Source: Clostridiaceae bacterium (lineage in GTDB: Bacteria; Bacillota; Clostridia; Saccharofermentanales; UBA5734). From it: a DNA stretch of 38,802 nucleotides. This document shows positions 3,041 through 38,802 of the stretch, piece after piece. The position numbers were made by a program, and so were the translations under genes. Positions within the stretch are counted from its first letter, which is position 1; each line of letters starts with the position of its first letter. Location of the stretch: positions 1 to 38,802 of the forward strand of contig JAAYNF010000062.1 in assembly GCA_012520975.1 (NCBI GenBank). The letters are read 5' to 3'. A model generated the notes under the pieces. That model was not told the DNA's origin, did no database searches, and saw nothing but the letters and a program-made list of their open reading frames with translations.

Positions 3041-3081
3041 CCCAGTTGTCCCTCCGTCATGTCCTGTACTATATCCTTATT

Positions 3082-3109
3082 ATTATACCATATTACCGAA
3101 ACGATCCGA
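3082..3109 (-). promoter_or_regulatory. Putative gyrA promoter
   Basis: The minus strand carries TATAAT (plus ATTATA, 3082-3087) with a TG one base upstream (extended -10) and a weak -35, TTCGGA, 17 bases away. The predicted start is near 3075, giving a leader of about 35 bases that contains the GGAGGG ribosome binding site of gyrA. Confidence 0.5.
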
Positions 3110-3144
3110 ACCTCTCGGCCCGGAAAATTATCCTATCCGATTGC

Positions 3145-3176
3145 AAAACCAAGAGCCGACCGGAGTCGGCTCTTGG
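3145..3176 (-). terminator. Intrinsic terminator of the TRAP operon
   Basis: A 12-bp perfect stem, CCAAGAGCCGAC (3149-3160) and GTCGGCTCTTGG (3165-3176), with a 4-base loop lies about 35 bases past the dctP stop. On the minus strand it is followed by TTTTGC. It separates the transporter operon from gyrA. Confidence 0.8.
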
Positions 3177-3211
3177 AGGAAATTATGTCGGCAGATTTTG
3201 AGAAAATCGGA

Positions 3212-9026: not shown

Positions 9027-9051
9027 AGGATCCTTTCCTGCACCACCCTTG

Positions 9052-22098: not shown

Positions 22099-22362
22099 TC
22101 AAGGCTGATCGCCGGTATCGCCGGCTAAAATTTCAAAAAGTCCGGCCGCCTCCTCTTTGCGTACGGTTTCCTTTACACTCAGAATTCTGATCCGAGAGCG
22201 TCCGGAGCCAAAAGCTATTTCCAGAATATCCCCCGGTTTCACCGTCGTGCCCGGTTTGGCCGGTCTGCCATTTATGCTGACCCGGCCGGCGCGACAAACT
22301 TCACTCGCAACGGTGCGCCGTTTGATGACACGAGATACTTTAAGAAATTTATCCAGTCTCAT
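22099..22362 (-). CDS. rqcP: RqcP/YabO-like S4-domain RNA-binding protein
   Basis: RqcP (YabO, HslR-like) is a small S4-domain protein that, with RqcH, adds alanine tails to nascent chains on stalled 50S subunits. The 87-residue product is a single S4 domain: MRLDKFLKVSRVIKRRTVA, CRAGRVSINGRPAKPGTTVK, GDILEIAFG. The start overlaps the end of mazG by 4 bases. Order mazG-rqcP matches B. subtilis yabN-yabO; the following sporulation genes yabP and yabQ are absent. Confidence 0.92.
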   Translation of the reverse strand: MRLDKFLKVSRVIKRRTVASEVCRAGRVSINGRPAKPGTTVKPGDILEIAFGSGRSRIRILSVKETVRKEEAAGLFEILAGDTGDQP

Positions 22363-23249
22363 TGTTCCTCATCCGCCTGTTCCTCTTCTTTGACCTGTTC
22401 CCACAACTGATCCATGGTGGCAAGGCTCATCTCGTTCCAAACAAAACCCCGCTGACCTGCCAGCTCCTCCACGCGGGAGAATCGGCGAATAAACTTTTCG
22501 GTCGATTGATTCAAGGCCATTTCCGGTTGCACATTCAAATGACGGGCATAATTGACCGCAGCAAACAAGAAATCCCCTACTTCACCGGCCACCTGCCGGT
22601 CAGCGATCTCCGGCTGCATTTCACCTTCTGCAACGGCTTGTTGCGTGCCGGTCCAAACCTTCCTGATCTCTTCCAGCTCCTCGTTGATTTTAGCCAACGG
22701 TCCGCCGGCATCATCCCAGTCAAAGCCGACTCGAGCCGCCTTTTGCTGAACTTTAAAGCTACGGTGCAGCGCCGGCAACACTCGAGGAACATCCTGCAAT
22801 ACCTGGGCTTGGCTGGTGTGCCCTTTCTCGACCAGCTTGTTTTTTTCCCATGTATCGATTGCTTCTCCCGAAGAGGCGGCCCGATCCTGACCAAAAATAT
22901 GCGTGTGGCGGGAAATCATCTTGCGGCAGATACCCTGCACAACATCATTGAAATCAAACTGTTCCGCCTCCGTTGCCAGTTGGGCGTGCAGAACCACCTG
23001 CAGCAAAACATCGCCAAGCTCTTCGCAAAGTTTGTCGGGGATGCCGCTGTCGATGGCATCAATGGCTTCGTAAGCTTCTTCCAGCAAATTCTTTCTCAAG
23101 GAAGCGTGTGTCTGCTCCCGATCCCAAGGACAACCACGATCACTGCGCAGAAAAGCCATGATCTCGATCAGGTCATCGATGGTGTATCGATCTTGATTTA
23201 TAAAAGAATCGGTGAGGGGCAACGGCTCTTGCCGGGAGTTGTTGAACAT
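22359..23249 (-). CDS. mazG: Nucleoside triphosphate pyrophosphohydrolase MazG
   Basis: MazG hydrolyses nucleoside triphosphates to monophosphates and is thought to clear aberrant nucleotides. The 296-residue product has two MazG domains; the first shows CPWDREQTHASLRKNLLEEA (residues about 47-66) with the metal-binding E-x2-E and later EELGDVLLQVVLHA, the second KINEELEEIRK and EVGDFLFAAVNYARHL. It lacks the N-terminal methylase-like (YabN) domain of B. subtilis. The start at 23249 has GGAGG 6 bases upstream; longer in-frame readings overlap the preceding gene. It lies 16 bases after a small unknown gene. Confidence 0.94.
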   Translation of the reverse strand: MFNNSRQEPLPLTDSFINQDRYTIDDLIEIMAFLRSDRGCPWDREQTHASLRKNLLEEAYEAIDAIDSGIPDKLCEELGDVLLQVVLHAQLATEAEQFDFNDVVQGICRKMISRHTHIFGQDRAASSGEAIDTWEKNKLVEKGHTSQAQVLQDVPRVLPALHRSFKVQQKAARVGFDWDDAGGPLAKINEELEEIRKVWTGTQQAVAEGEMQPEIADRQVAGEVGDFLFAAVNYARHLNVQPEMALNQSTEKFIRRFSRVEELAGQRGFVWNEMSLATMDQLWEQVKEEEQADEEQ

Positions 23250-23265
23250 CTTGTGCCTCCGGGGT

Positions 23266-23526
23266 TCATGCAAACCAGTGAATCTGGAAACGGTCAAATC
23301 GCACTTTTTCGTTGAACTGATCGGCAAAAAACAAGGTCTGATGAAATCGGGCAAACTCACGTGTATTCTTGGACAACCAGAGCGGAATCGGCACATCCAG
23401 TTCGTGGCACAATTCAATCAGGCATTTTTCCAGTTGCGACACGAAGGATGCGTTGCTATCCGGTCTTTCGACAGTGGCTTGACGCAACAAAAGGTTGGCA
23501 CGAAAGACACGCCCTTCCAGTTTCAT
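23266..23526 (-). CDS. Small conserved-looking protein upstream of mazG
   Basis: I do not assign a function. The 86-residue product begins MKLEGRVFRANLLLRQATVE and ends FFADQFNEKVRFDRFQIHWF, with a central helix and IPLWLSKNTREFARFH. The ATG has an excellent AAAAGGAGG ribosome binding site and the gene ends 16 bases before mazG, so it is almost certainly translated and co-transcribed with mazG and rqcP. No signal peptide or membrane segment is seen. I recall similar short proteins in Clostridia with a W/L-x-K-x-x-x-E-F pattern, but that is memory, not a search. A candidate -10 (TATAAT, plus 23604-23609) lies about 80 bases upstream. Confidence 0.7.
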   Translation of the reverse strand: MKLEGRVFRANLLLRQATVERPDSNASFVSQLEKCLIELCHELDVPIPLWLSKNTREFARFHQTLFFADQFNEKVRFDRFQIHWFA

Positions 23527-23725: not shown

Positions 23726-23738
23726 CTTGTCAGACAAG
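23726..23738. repeat. Short perfect palindrome across the rhaB stop codon
   Basis: CTTGTCAGACAAG is a 6-bp inverted repeat with a single central base. It includes the rhaB stop codon. It has no T-tail and no clear role. Confidence 0.3.
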
Positions 23739-25211
23739 ATCCGGAAAGAGTTGGCGATAGCGGATCAAAGCCGCCTCCCAGAGCTCAGTATCTTCCGGTT
23801 GGTAGTGCTGCAGATCGGTGGATGCGGCGATGATCTGCCGGGCATCCCGGAGCGATGCAATGGCGCCGGAGGCGATCAGCTGAACCGCAATATTACCCAG
23901 CGCCGTTCCCTCGGCCGGGCCGGCGATAACCTTGATGCCGGTGGCATTGGCGGTAAACTGAGAAAGAAGATCGTCTTTGGTGCCGCCGCCGACAACATGA
24001 ATGACCGGATAGCAACAACCGCTTATTTTTTCGATCTGCTCCGCAACCACCCGATACTTAAGGGCAAGACTTTCGTAGATGCAACGGACAATTTCGCCGC
24101 GGCTCCCGGGAACGACCTGACCGGTCCGGCGACAGATTTCCCGGATGCGTTCGGGAATATCGCCGGGAGCTGCCAAAGCAGGATCATCGGGATCGATCAA
24201 GCTGACAAAAGGCCTGCTGGCCAGCGCCTCCTGCTCCATTTCGGCAAAAGTCACATGTTCGCCCCGACGCAGCCACTGCCGGCGCGATTCCTGAATCAGC
24301 CAAAGACCTGTGATGTTTTTCAGGACTCGTGTCGAATTGTTGAATCCACCCTCATTGGTGAAATTAAACCGAAAGGCCGGATCGTTGATGATCGGCTTTT
24401 TTCGCTCAATTCCCATCAAAGACCAGGTACCGCTGCTCAGATATATAAAGTCGGCATCGGCGGCCGGAACGGCAACCACGGCCGAAGCTGTGTCATGGGC
24501 GGCGACCGTGATGACCGGGATGGGATCGATATGAAGTTCGCGACAGATATCCGGTGACAAAACACCGGCCTTGGTTCCGGAATCAACCAATCGGCAGAGC
24601 AACCGGCCGGGCAACCTCAATCGACGCAGCAACTCCAAATCCCATTCGTTGTCGGAAGAGCGAAGCAGCTGCCCTGTTGAGGCCATAGTTCTTTCCGCCT
24701 GCATCACACCGGTCAGGAAAAAAACAAAAAGATCCGGCATCAGGAGCAGGCGATCGGCCAATTGAACCAATTCCGGTTGTCGGTTTTGCAGGGCTTGCAG
24801 CTGAAAAATCGTGTTGAAGGGCTGGAACTGGATGCCGGTCCGCGCATACAGCTCTTTCTGGGGTATCACCTTGAAGATCTGGTCCATCACACCCTCTGTG
24901 CGCCGGTCGCGATAATGAACCGGATTTTGCAGCAATTGTCCCTGCTTGTCCAGCAAGGCAAAATCGACCCCCCAGGTATCGATTCCCAAACTGTCGATCG
25001 GCCCCTTGGCTTTGGCCTTGATCAGGCCCTGCTTGATCTCATGAAACAAACGGAGTACATCCCAGTACAGTGTGCCGCCAATTCTAACCGGATCATTGGG
25101 GAATCGATGAATTTCCTCCAGTTCGATCCGCACACCGTCAAAGCGGCCGAGCATGGCACGTCCGCTTGAAGCACCAAAATCAAAGGCCAGAACTTGCCGG
25201 TTAGCGCTCAT
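23730..25211 (-). CDS. rhaB: Rhamnulokinase
   Basis: RhaB is the FGGY-family kinase that phosphorylates L-rhamnulose at C1. The 493-residue product has the N-terminal AFDFGASSGRAMLGRFDG, LYWDVLRLFHEIKQGL, GIDTWGVDFALLDKQG and VHYRDRRTEGVMDQ, a pattern specific to rhamnulokinases among FGGY kinases, and the C-terminal HVVGGGTKDDLLSQFTANA. The start at 25211 follows AGGAGGTGG by 5 bases; an in-frame start at 25268 lies inside the aldolase gene. It is the last gene of the long array that begins at 36655, 16 bases after the aldolase. Confidence 0.95.
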   Translation of the reverse strand: MSANRQVLAFDFGASSGRAMLGRFDGVRIELEEIHRFPNDPVRIGGTLYWDVLRLFHEIKQGLIKAKAKGPIDSLGIDTWGVDFALLDKQGQLLQNPVHYRDRRTEGVMDQIFKVIPQKELYARTGIQFQPFNTIFQLQALQNRQPELVQLADRLLLMPDLFVFFLTGVMQAERTMASTGQLLRSSDNEWDLELLRRLRLPGRLLCRLVDSGTKAGVLSPDICRELHIDPIPVITVAAHDTASAVVAVPAADADFIYLSSGTWSLMGIERKKPIINDPAFRFNFTNEGGFNNSTRVLKNITGLWLIQESRRQWLRRGEHVTFAEMEQEALASRPFVSLIDPDDPALAAPGDIPERIREICRRTGQVVPGSRGEIVRCIYESLALKYRVVAEQIEKISGCCYPVIHVVGGGTKDDLLSQFTANATGIKVIAGPAEGTALGNIAVQLIASGAIASLRDARQIIAASTDLQHYQPEDTELWEAALIRYRQLFPDLV

Positions 25212-25227
25212 GGAATCCACCTCCTGA

Positions 25228-26352
25228 TTACTGTTCTTGAGCCGCGATGCTTTTTCTGAATTTCTCACTTTCCCAGCTGTTGATAAAGTCCTTGCCGGCC
25301 TCGTCCATAACGCTGACCGTCCGGCCGGTCCGGCGGATCGTATCGGTTATAAACAGGACGGCGCAAAGGGTTTCCTCGATGGTTCTGGCTTCGGTCTCGG
25401 AGCATTGATAATAAACCTCGCCGCTGGCACGAAAAACCGTGCACTTAGCGGTCGGCAGCCCGCCCGAAGCCAGGTGATCGGCCAAATCACCGGTTGATTG
25501 TTCAACCATTTGACCGTTCAAAAAAACCGTTTGATCCGGATAAATCGCCCTGGTTGTGAAGGTCTTCAGCTCCCACGGTTGGGTCAAAAGCCTTTGCCGG
25601 AGCCACGGCGTCGCCGAAACCCAGCCGGCCTGATCCTGACCTGCGGCCAGCATGATCTGCGGCCAGTCCTGCGCACCGACACCAAAGGCCGCGGCAATTC
25701 TTTGGTTGACCTGGTCATGAAGCCGGAGACAGGTGTCGGCATCCGGTCCGGTCACAATCAATCCGTGATTTTGCATGAAAATAATGGACGGCGGCTTATG
25801 ATTGTCTGCTGTGGCCCGGCGGCAGGCAGCATTAATGGCAAACGCCAGCTGCACGCCGGGATTGATATAGGGAACAAAGACATAGTCCGCATCCAGACCT
25901 TCCAGTGCTCTGCGCGCGATTTCGGCCCCTTCGTTGCTGCAGGTTGCCAGATTGGCATAAACCGGATGGGTGTGGAGAACATACGTATCCAGCAACGAAT
26001 GGAACCCGGCTTCGACGGACGGTCGCAGGGACGGCAGGCCGCCAATGACCTGGATTGCGGCTTTGGCCATGTCGGAACCGATTTTCTCCACATCGGCAAA
26101 AGCGGCCGGGTCGTTTCCGTAATAAAAATCCCGCAGCATCGCATAATCCAGAACAGCATAAGCCTGATCCGGCGCGATCTGCTCCAAGCGATATCCGGAG
26201 GCTTTGATGGCCATCAACCGGTCGTCAAGCTTGACCGACGTATTGCCGCCACCCCCTTGCACATAATCCGAGCGGGCTCCGGCGATTCCGGACATGCGCA
26301 CGTATTCGTTCAGTTTTTCTTGATTTCGGTCGACAAATAAGGGATTGGCCAT
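25228..26352 (-). CDS. Class II aldolase, probable L-rhamnulose-1-phosphate aldolase
   Basis: Class II aldolases of the RhaD/FucA/RhaEW group use a zinc ion to cleave ketose-1-phosphates to DHAP and an aldehyde. The 374-residue product has DYVQGGGGNTSVKLDDRLMA near the N-terminus, the zinc ligands in VLHTHPVYANL (HTH) and a third His in FMQNHGLIVTG. It is about 100 residues longer than E. coli RhaD and resembles the aldolase half of the fused RhaEW proteins, where the other half is an SDR. Its position between rhaA and rhaB supports action on L-rhamnulose-1-phosphate; a different 6-deoxyketose phosphate is possible. The ribosome binding site AGAGGTGA overlaps the rhaA stop. Confidence 0.8.
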   Translation of the reverse strand: MANPLFVDRNQEKLNEYVRMSGIAGARSDYVQGGGGNTSVKLDDRLMAIKASGYRLEQIAPDQAYAVLDYAMLRDFYYGNDPAAFADVEKIGSDMAKAAIQVIGGLPSLRPSVEAGFHSLLDTYVLHTHPVYANLATCSNEGAEIARRALEGLDADYVFVPYINPGVQLAFAINAACRRATADNHKPPSIIFMQNHGLIVTGPDADTCLRLHDQVNQRIAAAFGVGAQDWPQIMLAAGQDQAGWVSATPWLRQRLLTQPWELKTFTTRAIYPDQTVFLNGQMVEQSTGDLADHLASGGLPTAKCTVFRASGEVYYQCSETEARTIEETLCAVLFITDTIRRTGRTVSVMDEAGKDFINSWESEKFRKSIAAQEQ

Positions 26353-26355
26353 GGT

Positions 26356-27639
26356 TCACCTCTTAGACAAGACATCCTTTTCGTATTGGGCAATCGGAGC
26401 CAGATAATCGCTGCCTGCCGGAACACCTTCATTGAGACAGTACTGGTTCCAGACCGCAGCATAAGGCAGGGTGCGCGCCTCGTCCATCAGAGCCAGACGA
26501 TCGGCGAAACGTCCTTGCTGTTCGGCCTCACGAATTCGTTCGGTGGGTTCAAGCAAAGCCGCCAGAATGGCTTTTTGTGTAGCACGGACGCCGATCACCC
26601 AAGCGGCGATCCGATTGATGCTGCCATCAAAAAAGTCGGTGGCCAGATAAACACGATCAAAGGCCGCCGCGCGCTTGATTTCGCGCATGACATCCTGCAG
26701 ATTCTCGTCGGATATCACCACGTGGTCGCTGTCCCATTTGACCGCCCGGCTGACATGGATAAGAAGATGAGAGTTAAACAGCAGCAAAGAGGAAATTTTG
26801 TCGGCAATGGTTTCGGTCGGATGAAAATGTCCCATGTCCAATGTCAGCATCAGGCTGTCGTTACCATCGGCACGGGCATGCGCCAAATAACCCATGTAAA
26901 ATTCGTGGGAACCAACGGTGAAGCTTTCCAATCCGATGCCGAACAATTTGCATTCCACGGCGTCGACCACCAATTCAGCCGGATACCTCACGGCAAAAAT
27001 TTCATCCAAGGAATCGCGAAGCAAACGGCGGTAAAGGGTGCGATCCGCCGGCATATCCTTCATGCCGTCCGGAACCCAGATGTTATTGACCACGGTCTGA
27101 CCCAGTTCACCGGCTATGTCGGCGGCGATTCTGCGGCTGGCCTTGCAGTGGTCGATCCAGAAACGGCGTATTCTTTCATCCGGATGGGCCAGCGTCAGGT
27201 TGTCGGCGGCCATCGGATGGCCAAAACATGTGGGGTTGAAGTCCAGCGCGATCCCGCGGGCTTTCGCCCAATCGATCCATCGACGGAAATGACGTGTTTC
27301 GTAACGGTCCCGATCGACGTTCTCGCTGAATCGTTCCGCATAGCTGGCATGCAGATTCAGGCGCTGTTTACCGGGCAACAACTTCATCGCTTGGTCAATG
27401 TCGGCACGGAGTTCCTCCCCATTGCGAGCCTTGCCGGGATGGTTTCCGGTTGACATGATACCGCCCGACGCTCCGCCCCCCTGCTCTTCCAGGCCCGTGA
27501 CGTCATCTCCCTGCCAGCAATTCATGGAAATCGGGATTTTTTTCATTTGCTCCAGCACGGCTTCTGTATCGATGCCATAGGCAGCGTAGGTTTCGGCGGC
27601 GGCCGCATAGGCTTGGCGAATGGTATCAGGTTTAAGCAT
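26356..27639 (-). CDS. rhaA: L-rhamnose isomerase
   Basis: RhaA converts L-rhamnose to L-rhamnulose with manganese or zinc. The 427-residue product matches the family throughout: ISMNCWQGDDVTGLEE, GGIMSTGNHPGKARNGEELR, KQRLNLHASYAE, LDFNPTCFGHPMA and the DSDHVVISDENLQDVMRE block that carries metal ligands. The start at 27639 follows AAAGGAGGAGG; a longer in-frame reading to 27693 would extend into the PHP gene without a better site. The start overlaps the end of the PHP gene by 8 bases. Confidence 0.96.
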   Translation of the reverse strand: MLKPDTIRQAYAAAAETYAAYGIDTEAVLEQMKKIPISMNCWQGDDVTGLEEQGGGASGGIMSTGNHPGKARNGEELRADIDQAMKLLPGKQRLNLHASYAERFSENVDRDRYETRHFRRWIDWAKARGIALDFNPTCFGHPMAADNLTLAHPDERIRRFWIDHCKASRRIAADIAGELGQTVVNNIWVPDGMKDMPADRTLYRRLLRDSLDEIFAVRYPAELVVDAVECKLFGIGLESFTVGSHEFYMGYLAHARADGNDSLMLTLDMGHFHPTETIADKISSLLLFNSHLLIHVSRAVKWDSDHVVISDENLQDVMREIKRAAAFDRVYLATDFFDGSINRIAAWVIGVRATQKAILAALLEPTERIREAEQQGRFADRLALMDEARTLPYAAVWNQYCLNEGVPAGSDYLAPIAQYEKDVLSKR

Positions 27640-28972
27640 CGGGATTTCCTCCTCCTTTGGTCTTATCGTGCCGAACCGGATCATGGTTTCCAAAAATTTC
27701 CCGCGCGGCGTCGCGATAATATCGGATGCGGTGGTTCAAATCAGGCTGCCTGCGTTGGGTTTTCGCAGAAAACATGCCGTTGTCCAAGGACTTGCCGGCC
27801 AACTGCTCATGACCGATCAACGCCCAAGCCGCGTCATACAGGTTGGCAAAAAGCGGATCACGCATGGCTTGGCAAACAAAGGGCTGACGCGGCTGGTTGA
27901 TATCTTCGCCGCTGATCTGGAAAAACGCATGACGTTCACAGTTTTCCCGCAATCTGATCAGCTGTTCGCGGGTATTGCGGGATGGCATATAGGTCACAGC
28001 GGCAAACCCGATTTCCCGCAGCACGTCAAACAGTTCATCCAGATAGCGGTCCTCAAAGGTTTGGGCTTTCTTGTCCCCGGTTACCGAGGCCGTGACATCC
28101 CCCAGATAAGCATAAGCCAAAATGATGCCGTTTCCCCGGGCAAAATCCGCTACTTCAGCGATCGGCAGACATTCCTCCGTGGCCTCCAAATAAAATTTTT
28201 CGACCAAATGACGCTTCAGCACCCCCAGCAGGTCAAAGGCTCGAAAAGGATTATGGCCATCGATTAATCGCTCTTCATCTTGGTCGGAAACCGGAACAGC
28301 AAGTTTGTGCCGGAGCAGAACCGGCAGATCCGACTTATCATCACAACGGGCATCCAGTTTGAGGGCCAACGCGTAGAGCAGGTGTCGCTCGGTGATGGCC
28401 CCGCCGTTTTCCCATTCAGACAAGGGAATCACGTCTCCCTCGTAATCGATCGCCATGTTCAAGGGTGACAACAGGCCATTTAATCTTTCAACCATCAGCC
28501 GGTTGCGACGGTCTCTGGCTCTTCGGACCGGTTGAAAAAATGCCGTCAGGGCATCGATCCGGGAATGGGGAACACCATGCAGCGCAACGTAGGCCACACC
28601 GTCCTGATCCGGATTGTTGATCCGCCGGCCGGCCAGCTGCGTGTCGGCAAAAGAGGCCCGGCACTCGGCACCGATCGTGGTCGGCAGGCCGAGAACGGCT
28701 CCGGCCTCGATAAATTCCCTGGCGCCGCTGATGGAGTCATGGTCCATGATGCCGGCGGTGACCAGGCCGGCCCGGTCGGCCATCCACACGGCTTTGGTCG
28801 GTGAATAGGGTGAAAAGGAATACGTCGTATGAATATGATTGTTGACATCGCGCCCGCGAACCGACACCGGCAGATCGCCGGCATCCCGCAGGCTTTTTAA
28901 TCGGCGCAGAGCCGCCAAGCGCTGCTCCGCGCCGGATGCATTAAGCTGATCTATCAGGTTCTGTTCAGGCAT
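27632..28972 (-). CDS. PHP-domain metal-dependent phosphoesterase-like protein
   Basis: PHP-domain proteins use a cluster of metal ions to hydrolyse phosphate esters. The 446-residue product has the first PHP motif HIHTTYSFSPYSPT (HxH at about 46-48), the second motif GIMDHDS (about 75-80), IGAECRAS, and an ISGEDINQPRQPF segment near the C-terminus. Its specific substrate is unknown. It overlaps the rhaA start by 8 bases and follows the E1 gene by 36 bases, so it belongs to the catabolic operon. Possible roles are dephosphorylation of a sugar phosphate intermediate or of a toxic by-product. The ATG has AAAGGATCC upstream. Confidence 0.75.
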   Translation of the reverse strand: MPEQNLIDQLNASGAEQRLAALRRLKSLRDAGDLPVSVRGRDVNNHIHTTYSFSPYSPTKAVWMADRAGLVTAGIMDHDSISGAREFIEAGAVLGLPTTIGAECRASFADTQLAGRRINNPDQDGVAYVALHGVPHSRIDALTAFFQPVRRARDRRNRLMVERLNGLLSPLNMAIDYEGDVIPLSEWENGGAITERHLLYALALKLDARCDDKSDLPVLLRHKLAVPVSDQDEERLIDGHNPFRAFDLLGVLKRHLVEKFYLEATEECLPIAEVADFARGNGIILAYAYLGDVTASVTGDKKAQTFEDRYLDELFDVLREIGFAAVTYMPSRNTREQLIRLRENCERHAFFQISGEDINQPRQPFVCQAMRDPLFANLYDAAWALIGHEQLAGKSLDNGMFSAKTQRRQPDLNHRIRYYRDAAREIFGNHDPVRHDKTKGGGNPDA

Positions 28973-29008: not shown

Positions 29009-31486
29009 TCAGACGCCTTGGCGATTGCGGCGAAGGATCTCGACATCGGTAAAGCTTTTCCGGGCGACATATCCGGGAATGGGCCGGATCCGCTCATGGA
29101 AAATGTCAATAAACCAATCCGGCTGCGGGAAGAAATGCTCTTCCAGTTCATAGGCCGGCGTAATCCAGTTGCGCGAACCAAGAACCACCGCCGGCGCGTC
29201 AAGATAATCAAAACACAGGTCGCCAATGGTGCGGGCCAGTTCACTGAGATACGAACCACGCTCACAGGCATCGCCGGCGATAATGATCCGGCCGGTCTTT
29301 TTGACCGATTCGATGACCAAATCATAATTAAAGGGTACCATGGAACGGGCATCGATGATCTCGGCGCTGATGCCATATTTTTCCTGAAGGATCTTTGCCG
29401 CATCCAGCGCCCGGTAAAGGGTCGCGCCGATGGTCAGGATGGTCAGATCCGATCCGGCTCGTTTGATGTCGGGTTCACCGATCGGGATTTCATAACTTTC
29501 AACCGGTACGCCTCCTGTCCGGAATTGTTCTCCAACATCGTACAGCCGCTGGCTTTCAAAGAAAATAACCGGATCCGTACCATTAAGCGCGCTGGCCATC
29601 AAGCCTTTGGCGTCATACGGTGTCGCCGGAAAAACAACCTTGAGACCCGGGATATGCGAAACCAAAGAAGTCCAGTCTTGGGAATGCTGCGCGCCGTATT
29701 TTGAACCTACCGAGACACGAACAACCACAGGCATCTTGAGAATACCGGCGGACATCGCCTGCCATTTGGGCAGCTGGTTGAAGACCTCGTCACCCGCCCG
29801 GCCGAGAAAATCACAATACATCAGCTCCACCAATGCGCGTCCTCCGCACATGGCGTAGCCGACCGCCGAACCGACGATGGCGCCCTCCGATATTGGCGAG
29901 TTGAAAAGCCGATGATAGGGTACCGCCTCGGTCAAACCACGATAAACAGCAAAGGCACCGCCCCAATCTCGATTTTCTTCACCGTAGGCTACCAGAGTAG
30001 GATCCTCATAAAATTTATCCAAAATGGCCTCAAACAGCGCGTCACGCAGTTGGAAAACTCTGTTTTTGGAAATCGGGTCGCCCTTCTCATCGTAGGCAAA
30101 GCGGCTCTTTCTGGCGATTTGCTGGACGCGGGGATTTTCTTCCCTCGGCTGCAGCATATCAACCGGACGATCTTCCATCCGAACGATCCGTTGGTTGGAC
30201 AGCATGATTTTTTCAATGGCATCCGGCTGCTTGTTGAGGTCCATACGCGGCGACACAACAGGATCGATGGCCAGGCGCACCGCATCGGTAACGGTACGAA
30301 TGACGGCTTCGTCCGCGGCTTCGAAATCAACTTCGTCAAGCAGGCCGGCAGACAGCAGCTGCAAACGGAAATTGGCGATCGAATCGGCCTGCTGCCAGAG
30401 TTCTTTTTCCTCATTGGTTCGATACGAATCGGCATCCGAGGGAGAATGTCCGGAGTGACGGTAGGTCACGACGTCCAGCAGAACAGGGCCGCGTTTTTCG
30501 GCAAGAATTTTCAATTTTCTGGACATTGCGTCGATGACCGCCAGCGGATTATAGCCGTCGATGCGTTCGGCGTGCATTTGTTCCGGATTGACACCGGCGC
30601 CGATCCGAGCCACAAAATCATACCCCATGGTTTCGCCGCGGGTCTGGCCGCCCATGGCGTACTGGTTATTCATAATATTAAAGATCAGGGGCAATCCGCC
30701 CTTCATGTCGTCATCCCACAGGGTGCGGAACTGATCCATTGCCGACAGCATCATGCCTTCCCAGACCGGGCCGCAACCCAGCGAACCATCGCCGATGTTG
30801 CAGATCACGACGCCGGGTTTGCGATTGATTTTCTTATAGAGCGCCGCACCCACCGAGATGTCACCGGAACCGCCCACGATGGCATTGTTGGGATAAATGC
30901 CGAACGGCAGGAAAAAAGCGTGCATGGACCCTCCCAAGCCTTTATGAAAGCCGGTCTCTTTGGCGAATATTTCCGCCAAAACACCGTAGACCAAAAACTC
31001 GACCGCCAGCTGCCGAACCGACAGGTCGCGGCCTTGGTTGGCTTTTTCCACCACTTTGTAGGCGGCGCCATCGAGGAAGTTTTCCATCACGGCCAGCAGA
31101 TCCTCTTCCTTCATCTGATGTATGGCCGAAAGGCCTTTGGCAAGAATTTCGCCATGACTCCGATGTGAGCCGAAGATATAGTCGTCGGGCGTCAACAGAT
31201 ACGCCTGACCGACCGCGGCGGCCTCCTGTCCGAGGGAAAGATGAGCCGGGCCGGGATTGTTGTATTCCAACCCGTTGTACGTATTGGTTGTTTTGATTGA
31301 ATAAAGCATGGTTTCAAACTCACGGATCAAACGCATATAGCGATAAATCCGAAGGAAATCTTCTTTGCTGTATCGGTCTTTTTCGTCCTCAACCGATTTT
31401 TGGTATTGATTGACCGGAATATCCTGAAATTTGATCCAGCCCGGCTGCCGGACATCCTCCGGACTGACAAGCAAGTGTTTGGTCAT
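29009..31486 (-). CDS. Fused alpha-beta E1 component of a 2-oxoacid/acetoin-type dehydrogenase
   Basis: This thiamine-diphosphate enzyme would transfer an acyl group to the lipoyl E2. The 825-residue product fuses the normally separate subunits. The alpha half has GPAHLSLGQEAAAVG (79-93), GSHRSHGEILAKG, KGLGGSMHAF and the ThDP motif GDGSLGCG...MNN (232-274). The beta half (about 480-825) has SPISEGAIVGSAVGYAM, AQHSQDWTSLVSHIPGL and PATPYDAKGLMASAL, closest in style to acetoin and branched-chain oxoacid dehydrogenases. About 45 extra residues (about 123-172) interrupt the alpha half between HGEILAKG and TGFHKGLGG. The ribosome binding site AGGAGG is strong. E2 and E3 are immediately upstream. 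The substrate is not known; a pyruvate or acetoin role is possible. Confidence 0.85.
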   Translation of the reverse strand: MTKHLLVSPEDVRQPGWIKFQDIPVNQYQKSVEDEKDRYSKEDFLRIYRYMRLIREFETMLYSIKTTNTYNGLEYNNPGPAHLSLGQEAAAVGQAYLLTPDDYIFGSHRSHGEILAKGLSAIHQMKEEDLLAVMENFLDGAAYKVVEKANQGRDLSVRQLAVEFLVYGVLAEIFAKETGFHKGLGGSMHAFFLPFGIYPNNAIVGGSGDISVGAALYKKINRKPGVVICNIGDGSLGCGPVWEGMMLSAMDQFRTLWDDDMKGGLPLIFNIMNNQYAMGGQTRGETMGYDFVARIGAGVNPEQMHAERIDGYNPLAVIDAMSRKLKILAEKRGPVLLDVVTYRHSGHSPSDADSYRTNEEKELWQQADSIANFRLQLLSAGLLDEVDFEAADEAVIRTVTDAVRLAIDPVVSPRMDLNKQPDAIEKIMLSNQRIVRMEDRPVDMLQPREENPRVQQIARKSRFAYDEKGDPISKNRVFQLRDALFEAILDKFYEDPTLVAYGEENRDWGGAFAVYRGLTEAVPYHRLFNSPISEGAIVGSAVGYAMCGGRALVELMYCDFLGRAGDEVFNQLPKWQAMSAGILKMPVVVRVSVGSKYGAQHSQDWTSLVSHIPGLKVVFPATPYDAKGLMASALNGTDPVIFFESQRLYDVGEQFRTGGVPVESYEIPIGEPDIKRAGSDLTILTIGATLYRALDAAKILQEKYGISAEIIDARSMVPFNYDLVIESVKKTGRIIIAGDACERGSYLSELARTIGDLCFDYLDAPAVVLGSRNWITPAYELEEHFFPQPDWFIDIFHERIRPIPGYVARKSFTDVEILRRNRQGV

Positions 31487-31500
31487 GGTTTTTATCCTCC

Positions 31501-32862
31501 TCAGACTTGAAAAACGGCTTCGCGGATGATTTCAGCGACGGTGGGATGAGGGAAAATCAATTCCTTGATGTCGGCGATCCGCATCTGCGTTTCGATCAGA
31601 ATGCCGGCGGACATGATGATTTCGGAAGCATAGCTGCCAATGACATGACAGCCAAGCAGATATTCCCGATCGGAATCGATCAAAAGCTTGATCCGGCCCT
31701 GACCTCGATCGTTCTCGGCCAGATAACGGCCGCTGTAGTTCATGGGCAGCGTCACCTTCTTGTATTTGATGCCCTTGTCTTGGCAGGTCTGCTCGGTTTC
31801 GCCGACAAAAGCCATTTCCGGATTTGTATAAATAACAGACGGCATGGCTTGGTAGCGCATGAAATCTTTCTTGCCCAAAATAGTGTTAACCGCCACCTCG
31901 GCTTCGCGATATGCCGCATGGGCCAGCATCCAGACACCGTTGACATCGCCGACCGCAAACACTCCGGAAACATTGGTTCTGCCCTGAGCATCCGTGACAA
32001 TTCGTCCGCCTTCAACCAGCACTCCGAGATTTTCCAACCCGAAACCACGGACTACCGGCCGACGGCCGACGCTAAGCAGGGTGTAATCGGCGTCCACGGA
32101 TTTGGTTTCACCCGAATCGGTAAATTCAACCGAGCCGGGTTTGATATTGGTCACCTGACAATTCAAGTGAAACTCGATGCCTTTCCTCTCGTAGTCTTTT
32201 TGTAAAAGATCCGCCATTTCACGGTCGGCCGCACCGGCGATATGATCCAGCATCTCGACAACCGTGACTTGAGAGCCACAGGTCCGGAAATAGCCGGCCA
32301 TTTCCAATCCGATGACGCCGCCGCCGATGACAACCAAATGTTCCGGAATAACTTGAAGATCCAAGATCTCTCGGTTGGTCAGCACGCTTTTGCTTTCCAA
32401 GCCTTCTTTCACACCGTCAATGGGAGGGATCACCGCTTCGGATCCGGTCGCGATAATCAGGTGCCGGCTTGTGAAAACCTCCTCGCCGCATTGCACTCGG
32501 ATCTGGCGGTTTTCACGACCCAGAATGATACCGGTACCGTTCTTGACCGTGACCTTGCTGCTTTTCAACGTTTGACCGACACCGGCAACCAAGGTTCGGA
32601 CCACTTTGTTTTTCCGGGCCACGACCGCAGCCTGATCCAGACGGGGATTTTCGGTAAATACGCCGAAAACCTCGCCTCGCGCGGCATGATCAAAAACCTT
32701 GGCGCTGTGCAGGAATGTCTTCGAGGGAATGCACCCTTCGTTCAGACAAACACCGCCCAGTTTGTTTTTTTCGATCAGCAGCACCGACAAGCCGGCGCTT
32801 CCTGCCCGGTCAGCGGCCAGATAACCTCCGGGTCCTCCGCCAAGTACAATCAGATCAAACAT
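31501..32862 (-). CDS. lpdA: Dihydrolipoyl dehydrogenase (E3)
   Basis: E3 reoxidises the dihydrolipoyl group of E2 with FAD and passes electrons to NAD. The 453-residue product has the FAD motif GGGPGGYLAA (8-17), the redox-active disulfide GVCLNEGCIPSK (Cys39 and Cys44), the NAD motif VVIGGGVIGLEMAGYF, the second FAD motif GVFAVGDVNG and the C-terminal active-site FPHPTVAEIIRE. Length is normal. The start overlaps the end of E2 by 8 bases with GGAGGG 7 bases upstream. It lies between E2 and E1 in the same operon. Confidence 0.95.
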   Translation of the reverse strand: MFDLIVLGGGPGGYLAADRAGSAGLSVLLIEKNKLGGVCLNEGCIPSKTFLHSAKVFDHAARGEVFGVFTENPRLDQAAVVARKNKVVRTLVAGVGQTLKSSKVTVKNGTGIILGRENRQIRVQCGEEVFTSRHLIIATGSEAVIPPIDGVKEGLESKSVLTNREILDLQVIPEHLVVIGGGVIGLEMAGYFRTCGSQVTVVEMLDHIAGAADREMADLLQKDYERKGIEFHLNCQVTNIKPGSVEFTDSGETKSVDADYTLLSVGRRPVVRGFGLENLGVLVEGGRIVTDAQGRTNVSGVFAVGDVNGVWMLAHAAYREAEVAVNTILGKKDFMRYQAMPSVIYTNPEMAFVGETEQTCQDKGIKYKKVTLPMNYSGRYLAENDRGQGRIKLLIDSDREYLLGCHVIGSYASEIIMSAGILIETQMRIADIKELIFPHPTVAEIIREAVFQV

Positions 32863-34237
32863 GGGTAAGCCCTCCCTGCATCAGTAAAACAGGAAAATTT
32901 TCCAGAGTACGAACCAGATCCTGCAACAAGCGTGAAGCCGGCGCGCCATCAATGGCCCGATGATCGTAGGTAAGCGAAAGGGTCATCGCCGGATAGCTCT
33001 GCAGCCGGCCATCCTTTTCCCGGACGCGGGTAGTGACGGTATTGACGCCGAGAATGCAGGTTTGAGGGGGATTAATAATCGGAGTGAACGATTCAATCCC
33101 AAAAGATCCCAGATTGCTAACCGTAAATGTACCGCCCTTGAGCTTGTCCGGATTGATGGTTCCGGTCCGGCATTCTTCGGCCAGCGCCTTGACCTGCGCG
33201 GAAAGCTGGCTTAAAGATAGCTGATCGGCATAGAACACCGTCGGCACCATCAGGCCCCGGGGCGTGTCCACGGCTACGCCGAGATGGACATGCCGGAAAT
33301 AGGTCATCTTCTCATCATCATAATGGGCATTGCTGGCCGGATGACAGAGAAGCACCCGAGAAACGGCATAAAAGATAAGGTCCCCAATGGTCGGCACATT
33401 GTCCACCAGAGGATATCCCTGCCCGGTCAGTCCATCGGCGGCGGCGGCCTTGAGTTGGCGACGCAAATCCAAGATGGCCGTGGCGTCGAAACTCATATGG
33501 TTTGTCAGTTGCGCCATACTGGACAAAGAGTAATGCATCTGACGGGCAATGACCTTGCGGATGGTGCTGTGTTTTTCGGTCCAGGTTTCCGATTCATGCA
33601 GTTGGATCGCAACGGGACCCTCAACGCCGCCGACAATTGCCGCAGCCGCCCCCGCCGAAGCAACATCTTCAACACGGACGCGTCCGCCAAGGCCGGTTCC
33701 GGTCAAGCCCGACGGATAGGTTCCGACCGCACCGGTGGCCATCCTGCCCTGCTCCATCAACTGTCGTACATCCCGTTCGATGATTCGTCCTGCAGGACCG
33801 GTGCCGTCGGCCCGGCGTAAATCGACGTTGTGCTGCTCGGCCAAGTGACGGGCCCGGGGACTGATTCCTTGCTTGTCCGAATCCGTCGATTGAACCGGAA
33901 TCGACACGGGGATCGTGGTTTTTTCCGGCAAAACCTGAGATTTTTCACTTTCCTGATCCTTGGAAGCAGAATCGGGATGATAGACCGAGACATCCTCTCC
34001 CGGCTGACCGATAACACAAACATTGGTCAGACAGGGCACATCATCGCCCTCTTCAAAAAAGACCGCCAGCAATATGCCTGCAACGGTGGCGGCCTCATCA
34101 AAAATTGCCTTATCGGTCTCGTAGGTAAAAAGCAGATCTCCGACCGCAACGGAGTCGCCTTGCTTCTTGTGCCACTTGCCAATGATACAGCTCTCAACAG
34201 ATTGACCTTGGCGCGGCATGATGACAGGTGTTGCCAT
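32855..34237 (-). CDS. Dihydrolipoamide acyltransferase (E2)
   Basis: E2 is the core of the dehydrogenase complex: its lipoyl arm carries the acyl group from E1 to CoA. The 460-residue product has one lipoyl domain (1-80) with the lipoylated lysine in YETDKAIF (Lys43), a Ser/Pro/Gln-rich linker, a peripheral-subunit-binding domain (about 122-162, ISPRARHLAEQHNVDLRRAD), a second glycine/alanine-rich linker, and the catalytic domain with DHRAIDG (His426). The acyl specificity (acetyl or other) cannot be read. AGGAGGAATTAAT precedes the ATG. The SDR gene ends 27 bases upstream. Confidence 0.92.
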   Translation of the reverse strand: MATPVIMPRQGQSVESCIIGKWHKKQGDSVAVGDLLFTYETDKAIFDEAATVAGILLAVFFEEGDDVPCLTNVCVIGQPGEDVSVYHPDSASKDQESEKSQVLPEKTTIPVSIPVQSTDSDKQGISPRARHLAEQHNVDLRRADGTGPAGRIIERDVRQLMEQGRMATGAVGTYPSGLTGTGLGGRVRVEDVASAGAAAAIVGGVEGPVAIQLHESETWTEKHSTIRKVIARQMHYSLSSMAQLTNHMSFDATAILDLRRQLKAAAADGLTGQGYPLVDNVPTIGDLIFYAVSRVLLCHPASNAHYDDEKMTYFRHVHLGVAVDTPRGLMVPTVFYADQLSLSQLSAQVKALAEECRTGTINPDKLKGGTFTVSNLGSFGIESFTPIINPPQTCILGVNTVTTRVREKDGRLQSYPAMTLSLTYDHRAIDGAPASRLLQDLVRTLENFPVLLMQGGLTHV

Positions 34238-35389: not shown

Positions 35390-36655
35390 TCATATCGGTT
35401 TGGCATGGGCCAGCAAATAGTCTTCGGCGGCCTTGCACCAAAGTCCGTTATTGGCCTCGACCAGGTCCGCCAGCTTTCGGAAAATCTCATCGGTCTCGCC
35501 CAGAGTCCGGAAATCGTTGATGGCGGTCAGCGGCAGGCTGATTTGGGTGTAGACCAGCTTTTTGCCGCCGGGTATTTTCGGCAAATTCAGCGTGGTGTCG
35601 ACGACGCTGTCCAGACCGCCGATATGGGTGACCATCGCCGAAGGATCCAGTTTGCCTCTTGCCATCAAGTCCAGGGACTCGATCAGATCACCGGTCGTGC
35701 CGCCACTGTTGCCGGCCAGGTGCGTCGCATTATAGTGAACATTGTAAAAATTAAACCGTGCGGTGAACGCCGGATCGGTGGGACCGGCGAAAAAGTTGAG
35801 ACAGCCGTCGTAGCCCAGGATCCGGTCGGCCTGCTCAATAACCGCGGCAACCGGAGCATAGACAAAAACGTCATCGTATCCTTCGCCGCCGGCGATGGCC
35901 CGAAGATGCGCCGGGACATCTTTGATGTCGGCGGTATTGACGTAGACCAGCTTCACCCCGCAGCGTTCGGCCTCTTCCACGGTATAAATCGTTTCGGCCC
36001 GGGCTAGGCGAGAAGCATCGATGTCGGTGACCACCAACAGTCCCGGCTGGCGCGGGCCATGCAGGGCGTAGTCAATGGCGCCGAGACCCATGGGGCCGAC
36101 TCCTGCCAGCAACGCCATTTTCCCACCTTCGACGATCCCCATCAGATGCTCATAGCTGCCCGGACGCGTGTGGTAATTGACGTTAAATCCGCCGACAATA
36201 CAGGAGACCGGTTCGCCCAGTGAGCCAAAATAGTATGCATCCCCGTCGTAGGGCAGCAGGCAGCCGAGCTCCATCACAATGGACGGAATGACGATATGTG
36301 TCGCCGCTCCGCCGATATAAGGAAAAGAGTACCCCGGTGCGGCATAAACATTAGAAGGATCATTAAGGGCCGGTTGAATGACAAATCGATCGCCCGGCTT
36401 GAATTGATCCGCCCAGCGGCTGCCAACTTCAAGAATTTCTCCGCAGAACTCGTGGCCGATGATGACCGGATTGGTAGCGATATCTTCCGGAACCCGTTTG
36501 TGTTCATTCCCCTGAATTGCTGCTTTGTAACTGGACATACAAATACTGTCCGAAACGATTTTCGCTAGGATTTCATCCGAGCCGATCGCCGGCAGCTCGA
36601 AAGTATCAAGCCGTAAATCGCACTTGTCGTAGAGCCTGACCGCCTTGGTTTTCAT
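35390..36655 (-). CDS. Medium-chain alcohol dehydrogenase, L-sorbose-1-phosphate reductase-like
   Basis: This is a zinc-type medium-chain dehydrogenase resembling SorE, which reduces L-sorbose-1-phosphate to glucitol-6-phosphate. The 421-residue product has a putative zinc-site Cys in SICMSSYKAAIQG, the GHEFCGEILEVG motif, a cofactor-binding loop LLAGVGPMGLGAIDYAL, and GGEGYDDVFVYAP. The four-cysteine structural zinc lobe of classical alcohol dehydrogenases is not seen. It is longer than usual (about 350) and its substrate is not certain. It is the first gene of the array; AAGGAGGTAACC precedes the ATG, and a promoter with operator-like repeats lies upstream. Confidence 0.78.
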   Translation of the reverse strand: MKTKAVRLYDKCDLRLDTFELPAIGSDEILAKIVSDSICMSSYKAAIQGNEHKRVPEDIATNPVIIGHEFCGEILEVGSRWADQFKPGDRFVIQPALNDPSNVYAAPGYSFPYIGGAATHIVIPSIVMELGCLLPYDGDAYYFGSLGEPVSCIVGGFNVNYHTRPGSYEHLMGIVEGGKMALLAGVGPMGLGAIDYALHGPRQPGLLVVTDIDASRLARAETIYTVEEAERCGVKLVYVNTADIKDVPAHLRAIAGGEGYDDVFVYAPVAAVIEQADRILGYDGCLNFFAGPTDPAFTARFNFYNVHYNATHLAGNSGGTTGDLIESLDLMARGKLDPSAMVTHIGGLDSVVDTTLNLPKIPGGKKLVYTQISLPLTAINDFRTLGETDEIFRKLADLVEANNGLWCKAAEDYLLAHAKPI

Positions 36656-36967: not shown

Positions 36968-37726
36968 ATGCCCAGCCAACGTCGTGATGCCATCAACCAA
37001 TATATTCAATCCAAAGGCGAAGTGCGTCTTGCCGAGCTTGAAGTGCAATATCCCTACGTCTCCAGTATGACCTTGCGTCGCGATCTCGAGCATCTGGAAC
37101 GAATGGGCCGGATCATCCGCATTCGCGGCGGCGCAAAATCACTGGCTCACCTTTCCATGCTCAAAGAAGCCGCCTACACGCAACGGCAAGCCGAAAACAC
37201 ACAAGGCAAACTGGCCATCGCCGACAAAGCCGTTCAGCTGGTCGCCCCGGGCCGTTCCATCTACATTGATTCGGGAACCACCTGCATGTGCTTTGCGCAA
37301 CGGTTGCAAGATCAAAATCTTTTTGTTCTGACGCCGGCGCCCAACATTGCGCTGGAATTGGTCAGAAATCCCGGCATCAGGATTAATCTGACGGGAGGCC
37401 AGCTTAATCGTGAAACCTTGACACTGTCCGGCTTTAACGCCGTTGACTATGTCAAATCCCTTAATATCGATCAAGCCTTCATGGCGGCCAGTGCTTTTTC
37501 TGCCGGTGGCGGCTTTTCCTGCGGTGATTACTACGAAGCCGAGCTCAAGCGCCTGATCATCCGCAAAGCGCAGCAGGTTTTTCTTCTGATGGATCACAGC
37601 AAGATTAATTTCAGCATGCCCTACACTTTTGCCCGACTGCAAAACATCCACACCTTGGTCGTCGACCGGCCGCTACCGGAAGATCTGCTCAAGGAAGCCC
37701 GGCGGGCCCGGGTACGCGTGGTGTGA
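36968..37726 (+). CDS. DeoR/GlpR-family transcriptional regulator
   Basis: DeoR-family regulators usually repress sugar catabolic genes and respond to a phosphorylated sugar. The 252-residue product has an N-terminal winged helix-turn-helix (about 5-57: LAELEVQYPYVSSMTLRRDL, LERMGRIIRIRGGAK) and a DeoRC sensor domain with YIDSGTTCMCFAQRL, NLTGGQLNRETLTLSG, YYEAELKRLIIRKAQ and LLMDHSKI. CGGAGG precedes the ATG. It is divergent from the rhamnose array and its promoter and that of the array share repeated half-sites, so it most likely controls both. The effector could be L-rhamnulose-1-phosphate or a deoxyhexitol phosphate; this is inference. Confidence 0.9.
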   Translation: MPSQRRDAINQYIQSKGEVRLAELEVQYPYVSSMTLRRDLEHLERMGRIIRIRGGAKSLAHLSMLKEAAYTQRQAENTQGKLAIADKAVQLVAPGRSIYIDSGTTCMCFAQRLQDQNLFVLTPAPNIALELVRNPGIRINLTGGQLNRETLTLSGFNAVDYVKSLNIDQAFMAASAFSAGGGFSCGDYYEAELKRLIIRKAQQVFLLMDHSKINFSMPYTFARLQNIHTLVVDRPLPEDLLKEARRARVRVV

Positions 37727-38802
37727 TGATGACGATTCCACAACCGGAACCGGACCATGATCTGCTTCTCGTGCGATCAAGGAGTTTTGATCCCTGGCAC
37801 AACCTGGCTCTGGAGGATCTCCTGCTCGACCGAATGAACGAATCGGTCAAGGAAAACCGGCGACTTTCGGGGATTTTGTACCTGTGGCAAAACCAGGACA
37901 CGGTGGTCATCGGACGCAATCAAAATGCCTGGGCCGAATGCAATACCGCATTGCTGGAAAGGGAAAACGGCCGGTTGGCCAGACGAACGACCGGCGGCGG
38001 CGCGGTCTTTCATGATCTTGGCAATCTGAATTTTTCCTTGATTTTTCCCCGTAAGAGGTTCAGTCTGACCGATAATTTTGATTTGATCGTCGATACCGTC
38101 GCCAGCCAGGGAATCGACGCCGATCGCTCCGGGCGAAATGACGTGCTGGCAAAGGGACGCAAGTTTTCGGGCAATGCTTTCACCCATCGAGGTCAAGCCG
38201 CCCTTCACCACGGAACATTGCTGATCCACTCTGACTACGGACGCGTGTCGCGCTACCTGACCGTAAACCCACAAAAACTCCAAGCCAAGGGCATTGCTTC
38301 GGTGCGTTCCAGAATCATTAATTTACAGGAACTGGCGCCCGGCGTCACGGTAGACAACCTGTCCGAAGCCATGGCCGAATTATTTTGCGAACGGTTCGGT
38401 GGCCATTTGCCCAAACCGGCCAAGATCGGACACTTGGATGTTCAGGCTTTCACGGAAACAGGGGAATTCGCCCGGCGTCGGGAGTTTTTTGCCTCCTGGG
38501 ACTGGCGATACGGGCGGACTTTTCGTTTCGATGCCACCCTTGCCGGAAGACTGGATTGGGGACTGGTTGATATCGGCCTGACCGTCCAAGACGGAAAGGT
38601 CCGCAAGGCCGTCATCTATTCCGACGCGCTGGACGGTGATTTTATCAACCGGATGGAACATAACATCACGGGCTGTCGTTTTCTTTCTCAGGAACTGGCA
38701 ACGGCTCTGCTTGACACGCCCGGCCAAAACCATGACTTTGGCCCTTCCCGCCGCCAAATGGCCCGTGACCTGGCTGATCTCTTTCTGGAACAGAATTGGT
38801 AG
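37726..38802 (+). CDS. lplA: Lipoate-protein ligase
   Basis: LplA activates free lipoate with ATP and attaches it to lysine in lipoyl domains such as that of the E2 at 32855-34237. The 358-residue product has LWQNQDTVVIGRNQN, the RRTTGGGAVFHDLGNLNFS motif, GRNDVLAKGRKFSGNAF with the catalytic-type lysine, HHGTLLIHSDYGRVSRYL, and a C-terminal accessory domain, so it resembles full-length bacterial LplA. The ATG overlaps the deoR stop (TGATG) with no strong ribosome binding site, implying coupling; a GTG at 37723 is the alternative. The stop codon is the last codon of the window. No lipoyl synthase or octanoyltransferase is seen, so the cluster may depend on scavenged lipoate. Confidence 0.93.
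   Translation: MMTIPQPEPDHDLLLVRSRSFDPWHNLALEDLLLDRMNESVKENRRLSGILYLWQNQDTVVIGRNQNAWAECNTALLERENGRLARRTTGGGAVFHDLGNLNFSLIFPRKRFSLTDNFDLIVDTVASQGIDADRSGRNDVLAKGRKFSGNAFTHRGQAALHHGTLLIHSDYGRVSRYLTVNPQKLQAKGIASVRSRIINLQELAPGVTVDNLSEAMAELFCERFGGHLPKPAKIGHLDVQAFTETGEFARRREFFASWDWRYGRTFRFDATLAGRLDWGLVDIGLTVQDGKVRKAVIYSDALDGDFINRMEHNITGCRFLSQELATALLDTPGQNHDFGPSRRQMARDLADLFLEQNW

Follow-up and report, generated by a model that had tools for sequence, protein, structure and literature searches.

The closest described relatives of the protein considered here are phosphoesterases with a PHP barrel, namely BAD_1165 (3o0f/3e0f), RNase AM (9etk, 7ug9), and Cv1693 (2yb1), which we take to be a 3',5'-nucleoside bisphosphate phosphatase. 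PHP domains carry a set of nine metal ligands, as tabulated in the excerpted text of PMC3666897. For RNase AM, it has been proposed that two metals hold the attacking water (PMC9410882, in excerpt). The protein itself is made up of 446 residues and is encoded on contig JAAYNF010000062.1 (assembly GCA_012520975.1) of a Clostridiaceae bacterium; the whole stretch analysed, 38,802 nucleotides, is referred to as the window. Its gene lies in an operon with L-rhamnose genes, and the original prediction described it as a PHP-domain protein translationally coupled to the rhamnose isomerase gene rhaA. It is a member of a PHP family whose metal site has been remodelled and whose genomic tie to a fused E1 complex is closer than expected.

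Deoxy-sugars of plant pectin and host mucus are food for many anaerobes. The phosphorylating routes known to us for their breakdown go via lactaldehyde. The L-sorbose pathway uses SorE and SorD to flip a ketose-1-phosphate so that it becomes a ketose-6-phosphate. RhaEW has been shown to yield lactate and dihydroxyacetone phosphate (DHAP) from rhamnulose-1-phosphate (PMC3870299, in excerpt). The RhaEW pathway and the window both have RhaA, RhaB, a RhaE-like class II aldolase, and a RhaW-like short-chain dehydrogenase/reductase (SDR). As a point of difference, neither "PHP" nor "dehydrogenase complex" turns up in a term count of the main text of PMC3870299 on RhaEW. In the open-licence literature, no paper linked rhamnulokinase, or rhamnose together with a dehydrogenase E1, to a PHP domain, and none joined a PHP domain, RNase AM, and the term trinuclear. 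Three of six terms on deoxyketoses or acetoin likewise drew a blank there, a single paper names both sorbose-1-phosphate reductase and sorbitol-6-phosphate dehydrogenase, and 24 papers combine lactaldehyde, a dehydrogenase complex, and rhamnose.

Fold and metal site of the PHP protein

The open reading frame (ORF), which starts with ATG, is a real gene: 80 distinct sequences, the window's included, align with its product at pairwise identities down to 38%. This sample comes from 120 loci with a match, of which 101 were usable (L and G numbers below are our handles for loci and genomes). No copy was found in the plasmid records searched.

Despite a match to Pfam PF02811 below the gathering score (22.8 against 26.4 bits for the single sequence, residues 46-107; 24 bits in the genome search), the modelled protein clearly has a PHP barrel fold. 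The AlphaFold2 model, made from an alignment of 35 sequences, has a mean pLDDT of 91.8 and matches 3o0f with a Z score of 25.9 over 274 residues (root-mean-square deviation 2.6), RNase AM with Z 23.9, and 2yb1 with Z 23.3. Canonical PHP proteins, four encoded by relatives and a fifth by the genome that contains the window, align with it in profile-profile comparison by hhalign at a probability of 98% and an E value of 1.5e-13. HxH, DHD-type, Glu, and C-terminal Asp motifs are common to the protein, BAD_1165, Cv1693, and RNase AM (Z 18-26). The protein differs from these three by an extra length of about 150 residues, with helices that precede the barrel at the N-terminus, and by invariant Phe, Tyr, Tyr, and Asn in place of four of the nine ligands.

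All nine ligands are intact in the canonical relatives (5/5). In the family of the window protein, ligand positions 1, 2, 4, 5, and 8 are kept as H46, H48, H78, E103, and D357, and the other four are F53, Y128, Y289, and N359. H46, H48, and F53 are invariant in 77/77 distinct sequences with the column filled, and H78, E103, Y128, Y289, D357, and N359 in 80/80. Of the nine-ligand set of three-metal PHP phosphoesterases, five are kept and four replaced, without exception among the 80 distinct sequences wherever the column is filled. Hhalign puts the seventh ligand at Y289 (Y287 is invariant too) and gaps the His of the sixth and ninth, which were assigned to Y128 by strand register and to N359 from the GxDxH motif. 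H132, considered as a shifted sixth ligand, is unlikely, as it is Gln in 6/80 sequences. R105, R153, R156, R196, K253, K301, and R332 are invariant in 80/80, and the tabulated invariant polar residues number more than 20. An altered metal site is highly probable for this family. By the RNase AM ligand scheme, one metal site is complete and the other two are broken; one of the broken ones belongs to the pair for which water holding is proposed. F53 occupies the position of D20 in RNase AM, where the D20A substitution disrupted activity (PMC9410882, in excerpt).

These residues bear on the idea that the protein is a sugar-phosphate phosphatase, clearing a dead-end or toxic ester made by the operon, such as a tetrose phosphate or excess rhamnulose-1-phosphate. 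The nearest folds are phosphoesterases, the operon is rich in sugar-phosphate enzymes, and many basic residues are invariant. Set against this, four of nine ligands are replaced family-wide, which makes the usual three-metal mechanism unlikely; one of the two sites proposed to hold water in RNase AM is missing, and the D20 position is changed. We regard such a phosphatase as quite unlikely. The original prediction had proposed hydrolysis of a dead-end or toxic phosphorylated intermediate and had named loss of the metal ligands as a sign against it. A phosphorylated sugar, especially a tetrose phosphate, is still a reasonable substrate, but a standard three-metal phosphatase is unlikely; the loss itself is half borne out, with four of nine ligands gone family-wide and the residues for one metal invariant.

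The remodelled metal site suggests a changed reaction. Many invariant Arg and Lys residues would fit a phosphorylated ligand. Since they occur together with one complete metal site and with Tyr, Asn, and Phe replacements, sugar-phosphate chemistry other than three-metal hydrolysis is probable. The protein rather likely acts on a sugar-phosphate substrate.

An incomplete ligand set is also found in the PHP domain of E. coli Pol III alpha, which has lost five of the nine ligands, in which no metal was seen, and to which a structural role is ascribed (PMC3666897, in excerpt). The window protein might by this parallel be a catalytically dead barrel that is retained to scaffold or regulate the E1/E2/E3 complex, and its strongest genomic tie is indeed to E1. 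In contrast to Pol III alpha, every ligand of one metal site is invariant in the 80 sequences, as are the tabulated polar residues, and the PHP gene is often away from E1. A dead barrel is improbable.

Members of the RNase AM and Cv1693 kind, nucleotide or RNA 5'-end phosphatases unrelated to sugar breakdown, are the closest solved folds, and some copies of the PHP gene lie among housekeeping genes such as those we take to encode topoisomerase subunits. The NCBIfam model for 3',5'-nucleoside bisphosphate phosphatase (NF041577) scores 21.5 bits against a cut-off of 400, the metal ligands are lost, and the genome that contains the window (G000) also encodes a canonical nine-ligand PHP protein (L002). 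A function of this kind is very improbable. In L170, L174, L177, and L178, the PHP gene is near genes of clusters c14 and c15, presumably the topoisomerase IV subunits, and an SDR of 61-62% identity is near it in L170, L174, and L177.

Genomic partners of the PHP gene

The PHP protein very probably belongs to a conserved module, composed of a SorE-like zinc dehydrogenase, an SDR, a fused E1, E2, and E3, that occurs in L-rhamnose and L-fucose operons. Co-occurrence was counted in 341 genomes drawn from the class, related genomes among them not being independent, and 58 of these carry the PHP protein. Fused E1 is found in 53/58 carriers (phi 0.83, odds ratio 239) and the SorE-like dehydrogenase in 55/58 (phi 0.76), and the three occur together in 52. 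By family, E1 is present in 23 of the 24 PHP-bearing families, the total of about 80 families being assumed from labels. A set of 58 relatives includes 25 with a full-type PHP protein; 24 of the 25 have E1 (E <= 1e-100) and 19 have RhaA, and in the carrier that remains, G017, an incomplete E1 adjoins PHP (L049).

Genes of the module are not always adjacent. Of the 39 genomes from which the named PHP loci come, 33 have E1. Eleven of these genomes have a PHP locus without another module gene in its stretch (some stretches are short, e.g., L007 and L013), and E1 lies elsewhere in 10 of the 11. Flanks of 5 kb or more on either side are available for 42 distinct PHP loci, chosen partly by hand; a module, kinase, or aldolase gene is within 5 kb in 29 of them and none is in 13. 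Three PHP copies apart from the module (L167, L004, and L172) have directly upstream a protein with its own HxH...SDG PHP-like motif, at 8644-9954, 2900-4210, and 8402-9694, respectively; the L167 protein has no Pfam family match at 1e-5.

Six near-relative genomes have E1 and no PHP gene. In G001, G011, G015, and G020, the contig ends 13-232 bases past E1, and these near relatives carry little weight as counter-examples; the other two are G041 and G047. The four assemblies break right after E1, where the PHP gene would follow.

Rhamnose isomerase is a looser partner than the original prediction implied. RhaA is found in 39/58 carriers against 107/341 genomes overall, and rhaA is directly downstream in 12 distinct relatives from the window's family. 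This association is weaker than that with E1 or the dehydrogenase (phi 0.35 against 0.83 and 0.76), and RhaA is within 5 kb in 3 of the 42 well-flanked loci. L-fucose isomerase clusters with the PHP protein in L025 and L036, and both isomerases occur with the module. With E1 and the SorE-like dehydrogenase as the stronger partners, a rhamnose-specific phosphatase was set aside as the principal explanation, and RhaA is not the defining partner.

The local arrangement that had been described is confirmed: a 446-residue PHP-fold ORF begins 36 bases after the fused E1 gene, and its stop codon, within ATGCTTAA, falls in an 8-base overlap with the likely rhaA start (ATG at 27639). The coupling that was drawn from this overlap fares less well. 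The rhaA gene has a Shine-Dalgarno-like sequence of its own, AAAGGAGGAGG, within the 3' end of the PHP gene, and this makes strict translational coupling doubtful. The 12 relatives (L079 repeats L050 and was not counted) have gaps of 10-78 bases in 11 cases and a 14-base overlap in one (L049). Conserved coupling is ruled out by these distances, and the 8-base overlap is peculiar to the window genome.

The operon and its dehydrogenases

Nine genes lie on the same strand, in the order zinc dehydrogenase, SDR, E2, E3, fused E1, PHP, RhaA, class II aldolase-family protein, and RhaB. Their coordinates, with those of two plus-strand neighbours, are collected in Table 1.

Table 1. Genes of the operon and its plus-strand neighbours in the window.
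Feature	Coordinates	Strand	Basis
Zinc-type dehydrogenase, SorE/YggP family (L-sorbose-1-phosphate reductase-like)	35390..36655	-	51% full-length to annotated sorE, 55% to YggP
SDR, sorbitol-6-phosphate-dehydrogenase-like, N-terminal extension of ~100 residues	34265..35383	-	PRK12384, 5o3z, plasmid relatives
E2, lipoyl acyltransferase	32855..34237	-	Family-model matches
E3, dihydrolipoyl dehydrogenase	31501..32862	-	TIGR01350 above cut-off
Fused alpha-beta E1 of the thiamine-diphosphate-dependent type; the PHP protein's main genomic partner	29009..31486	-	Family models, co-occurrence
Divergent PHP-fold protein, 446 residues, predicted one-metal site (H46, H48, E103, D357 kept; also H78)	27632..28972	-	ORF, fold, invariant residues
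L-rhamnose isomerase RhaA (likely ATG at 27639)	26356..27639	-	Family-model matches
Class II aldolase-family protein, distantly RhaE-like	25228..26352	-	Family-model matches
Rhamnulokinase RhaB (ORF limits; true start may be inside)	23730..25268	-	TIGR02627, 515 bits, just under cut-off of 528
Divergent DeoR-family regulator, often found with the module	36968..37726	+	Family-model matches
Probable lipoate-protein ligase, runs to window end	37723..38802	+	Name presumed from the sequence

The zinc dehydrogenase aligns with annotated sorE over 419 residues, and this full-length similarity places it in the SorE family. Relatives of 61-63% identity follow a phosphotransferase system (PTS) EIIA_2-family gene in L195 and are near a PRD regulator in L194, settings we take to be mannitol systems. 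SorE/YggP-family dehydrogenases are near PTS EIIA-type genes in L194, L195, and L196 (by Pfam for L195, by eye for the other two), in genomes where no fused E1 was detected. These may be zinc-type mannitol-1-phosphate dehydrogenases that replace MtlD.

The best NCBIfam match of the SDR is PRK12384 (230 bits against a cut-off of 307), and its structure-linked match is 5o3z. In plasmid records it has 13 matches of 35-39% identity, 10 of which are annotated as srlD or sorbitol-6-phosphate dehydrogenase. It also matches TIGR02632 in the C-terminal (RhaW) part, with 159 bits. The two window dehydrogenases resemble the SorE/SrlD type, with the difference that here they go with a fused E1/E2/E3 and with isomerases and kinases for rhamnose or fucose.

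PDH-like models score best with the E1, and one relative is annotated as acoB/acetoin:DCPIP oxidoreductase. In the three plasmid clusters examined, from Rhizobium, Agrobacterium, and Pleomorphomonas, relatives of 53-55% identity have sugar kinases and transporters for sugars or polyols as neighbours. In these clusters (L202, L203, and L204), the fused E1 is accompanied by a free lipoyl-domain gene as well as by the sugar kinases and sugar transporters; they perhaps serve the breakdown of a 1-deoxyketose, e.g., 1-deoxyxylulose.

At the edge of the window, the ORF that we presume to encode a lipoate-protein ligase has homologues that adjoin E1 in L018, L030, and L040. An ORF that is MazG-like by eye follows the rhamnose operon at 22359-23417; a similar one follows the operon in L003, and another (also by eye) follows PHP in L164.

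A possible route from L-rhamnose and L-fucose

We infer each reaction, stereochemical outcome, and substrate of the following route from the partner families. Rhamnulose-1-phosphate or fuculose-1-phosphate would be reduced at C2 and oxidised at C5 by the SorE-like and SrlD-like enzymes between them. The product of this flip would be a 1-deoxyketohexose-6-phosphate, the methyl end of which (CH3-CO-CHOH-) is an acetoin-like acyloin. The thiamine-dependent E1, with E2 and E3, would cleave it as acetoin is cleaved, giving acetyl-CoA and an aldotetrose-4-phosphate. With the stereochemistry of SorE, worked through by hand, rhamnose and fucose would both leave D-threose-4-phosphate, which to our knowledge is not a normal metabolite. 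In the five open-licence papers checked for it, "threose 4-phosphate" is not mentioned.

Because both sugars would give D-threose-4-phosphate, one module could serve both, and an extra enzyme would be needed. The PHP protein is a candidate for this step, being a frequent member of the module that lacks another role. It would isomerise or epimerise D-threose-4-phosphate towards D-erythrose-4-phosphate, or dephosphorylate it. The tetrose phosphate would then enter the pentose phosphate pathway, with neither lactaldehyde nor propanediol formed. A transketolase would be expected where erythrose-4-phosphate is formed, and in L023 a gene for one comes after the module. That the PHP protein processes a tetrose phosphate follows from the logic of the pathway and is possible but doubtful.

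The operon can also be read along known lines. Here the aldolase would yield DHAP and L-lactaldehyde, the SDR would form lactate, which would go on to pyruvate, and E1/E2/E3 would be a pyruvate dehydrogenase producing acetyl-CoA, with the PHP protein in a side function. The activity of RhaEW is demonstrated (PMC3870299, in excerpt), the E1 is nearest to pyruvate dehydrogenase-type models, and the SDR matches RhaW as given above. This reading leaves no role for a SorE-like ketose-phosphate reductase or for the PHP partner. In addition, no match to either operon aldolase type was found in the stretches examined of nine chosen module loci (L006, L018, L020, L080, L145, L146, L147, L158, and L200), and six of these (L006, L020, L080, L145, L146, and L147) have RhaB beside PHP. 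The known route, with the PHP protein as a bystander, is rather unlikely.

Several findings weigh against the acyloin route and the place of the PHP protein in it. The operon includes a class II aldolase-family gene, which in some loci (L011, L019, and L041) is fused to the SDR beside PHP, like RhaEW. A class II aldolase domain is present in 65/65 PHP-carrier genomes examined, of 82 carriers known; no aldolase-free genome was found among the 65, the best matches being weak in G264, G141, G192, and G107. These cells may therefore use the ordinary aldolase route. Identity between the window SDR and that of the Klebsiella sor cluster is just 26%. E1 was undetected in five PHP carriers: G115 and G164 (both 96% complete), G266 (92%), G361 (90%), and G354 (71%). 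Conversely, 12 of 65 genomes with E1 have no PHP gene, and six of the 12 have the SorE-like dehydrogenase (G111, G129, G231, G302, G319, and G399); contig ends do not explain the absence in G111 (99% complete), G129 (95%), G302 (96%), and G399 (100%). E1 is found in other settings without PHP, and the dehydrogenase occurs without it in 26 of the 341 genomes. Lastly, the loss of ligands could also mean that catalysis was lost.

Near PHP and rhamnose genes, a recurrent protein of about 430 residues carries two class II aldolase domains; it is encoded at 3905-5194 in L079 (by eye), 10686-11969 in L162, and 5027-6313 in L031 (both by Pfam).

On balance, our best explanation, tentative and short of probable, is that the PHP protein is a module enzyme with an altered one-metal site in a deoxy-sugar pathway. 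The complete form of this proposal, an undescribed L-rhamnose and L-fucose route with a dehydrogenase flip, acyloin cleavage by E1/E2/E3, and a single-metal, Tyr-bearing PHP enzyme acting on D-threose-4-phosphate, is unlikely to hold in every part. A uniformly remodelled PHP family that follows fused E1 and enzymes of the SorE kind through some two dozen bacterial families would provide a new route to acetyl-CoA that can be tested. If true, the proposal would mean a new reaction for the PHP fold and an undescribed way for anaerobes to burn plant deoxy-sugars.

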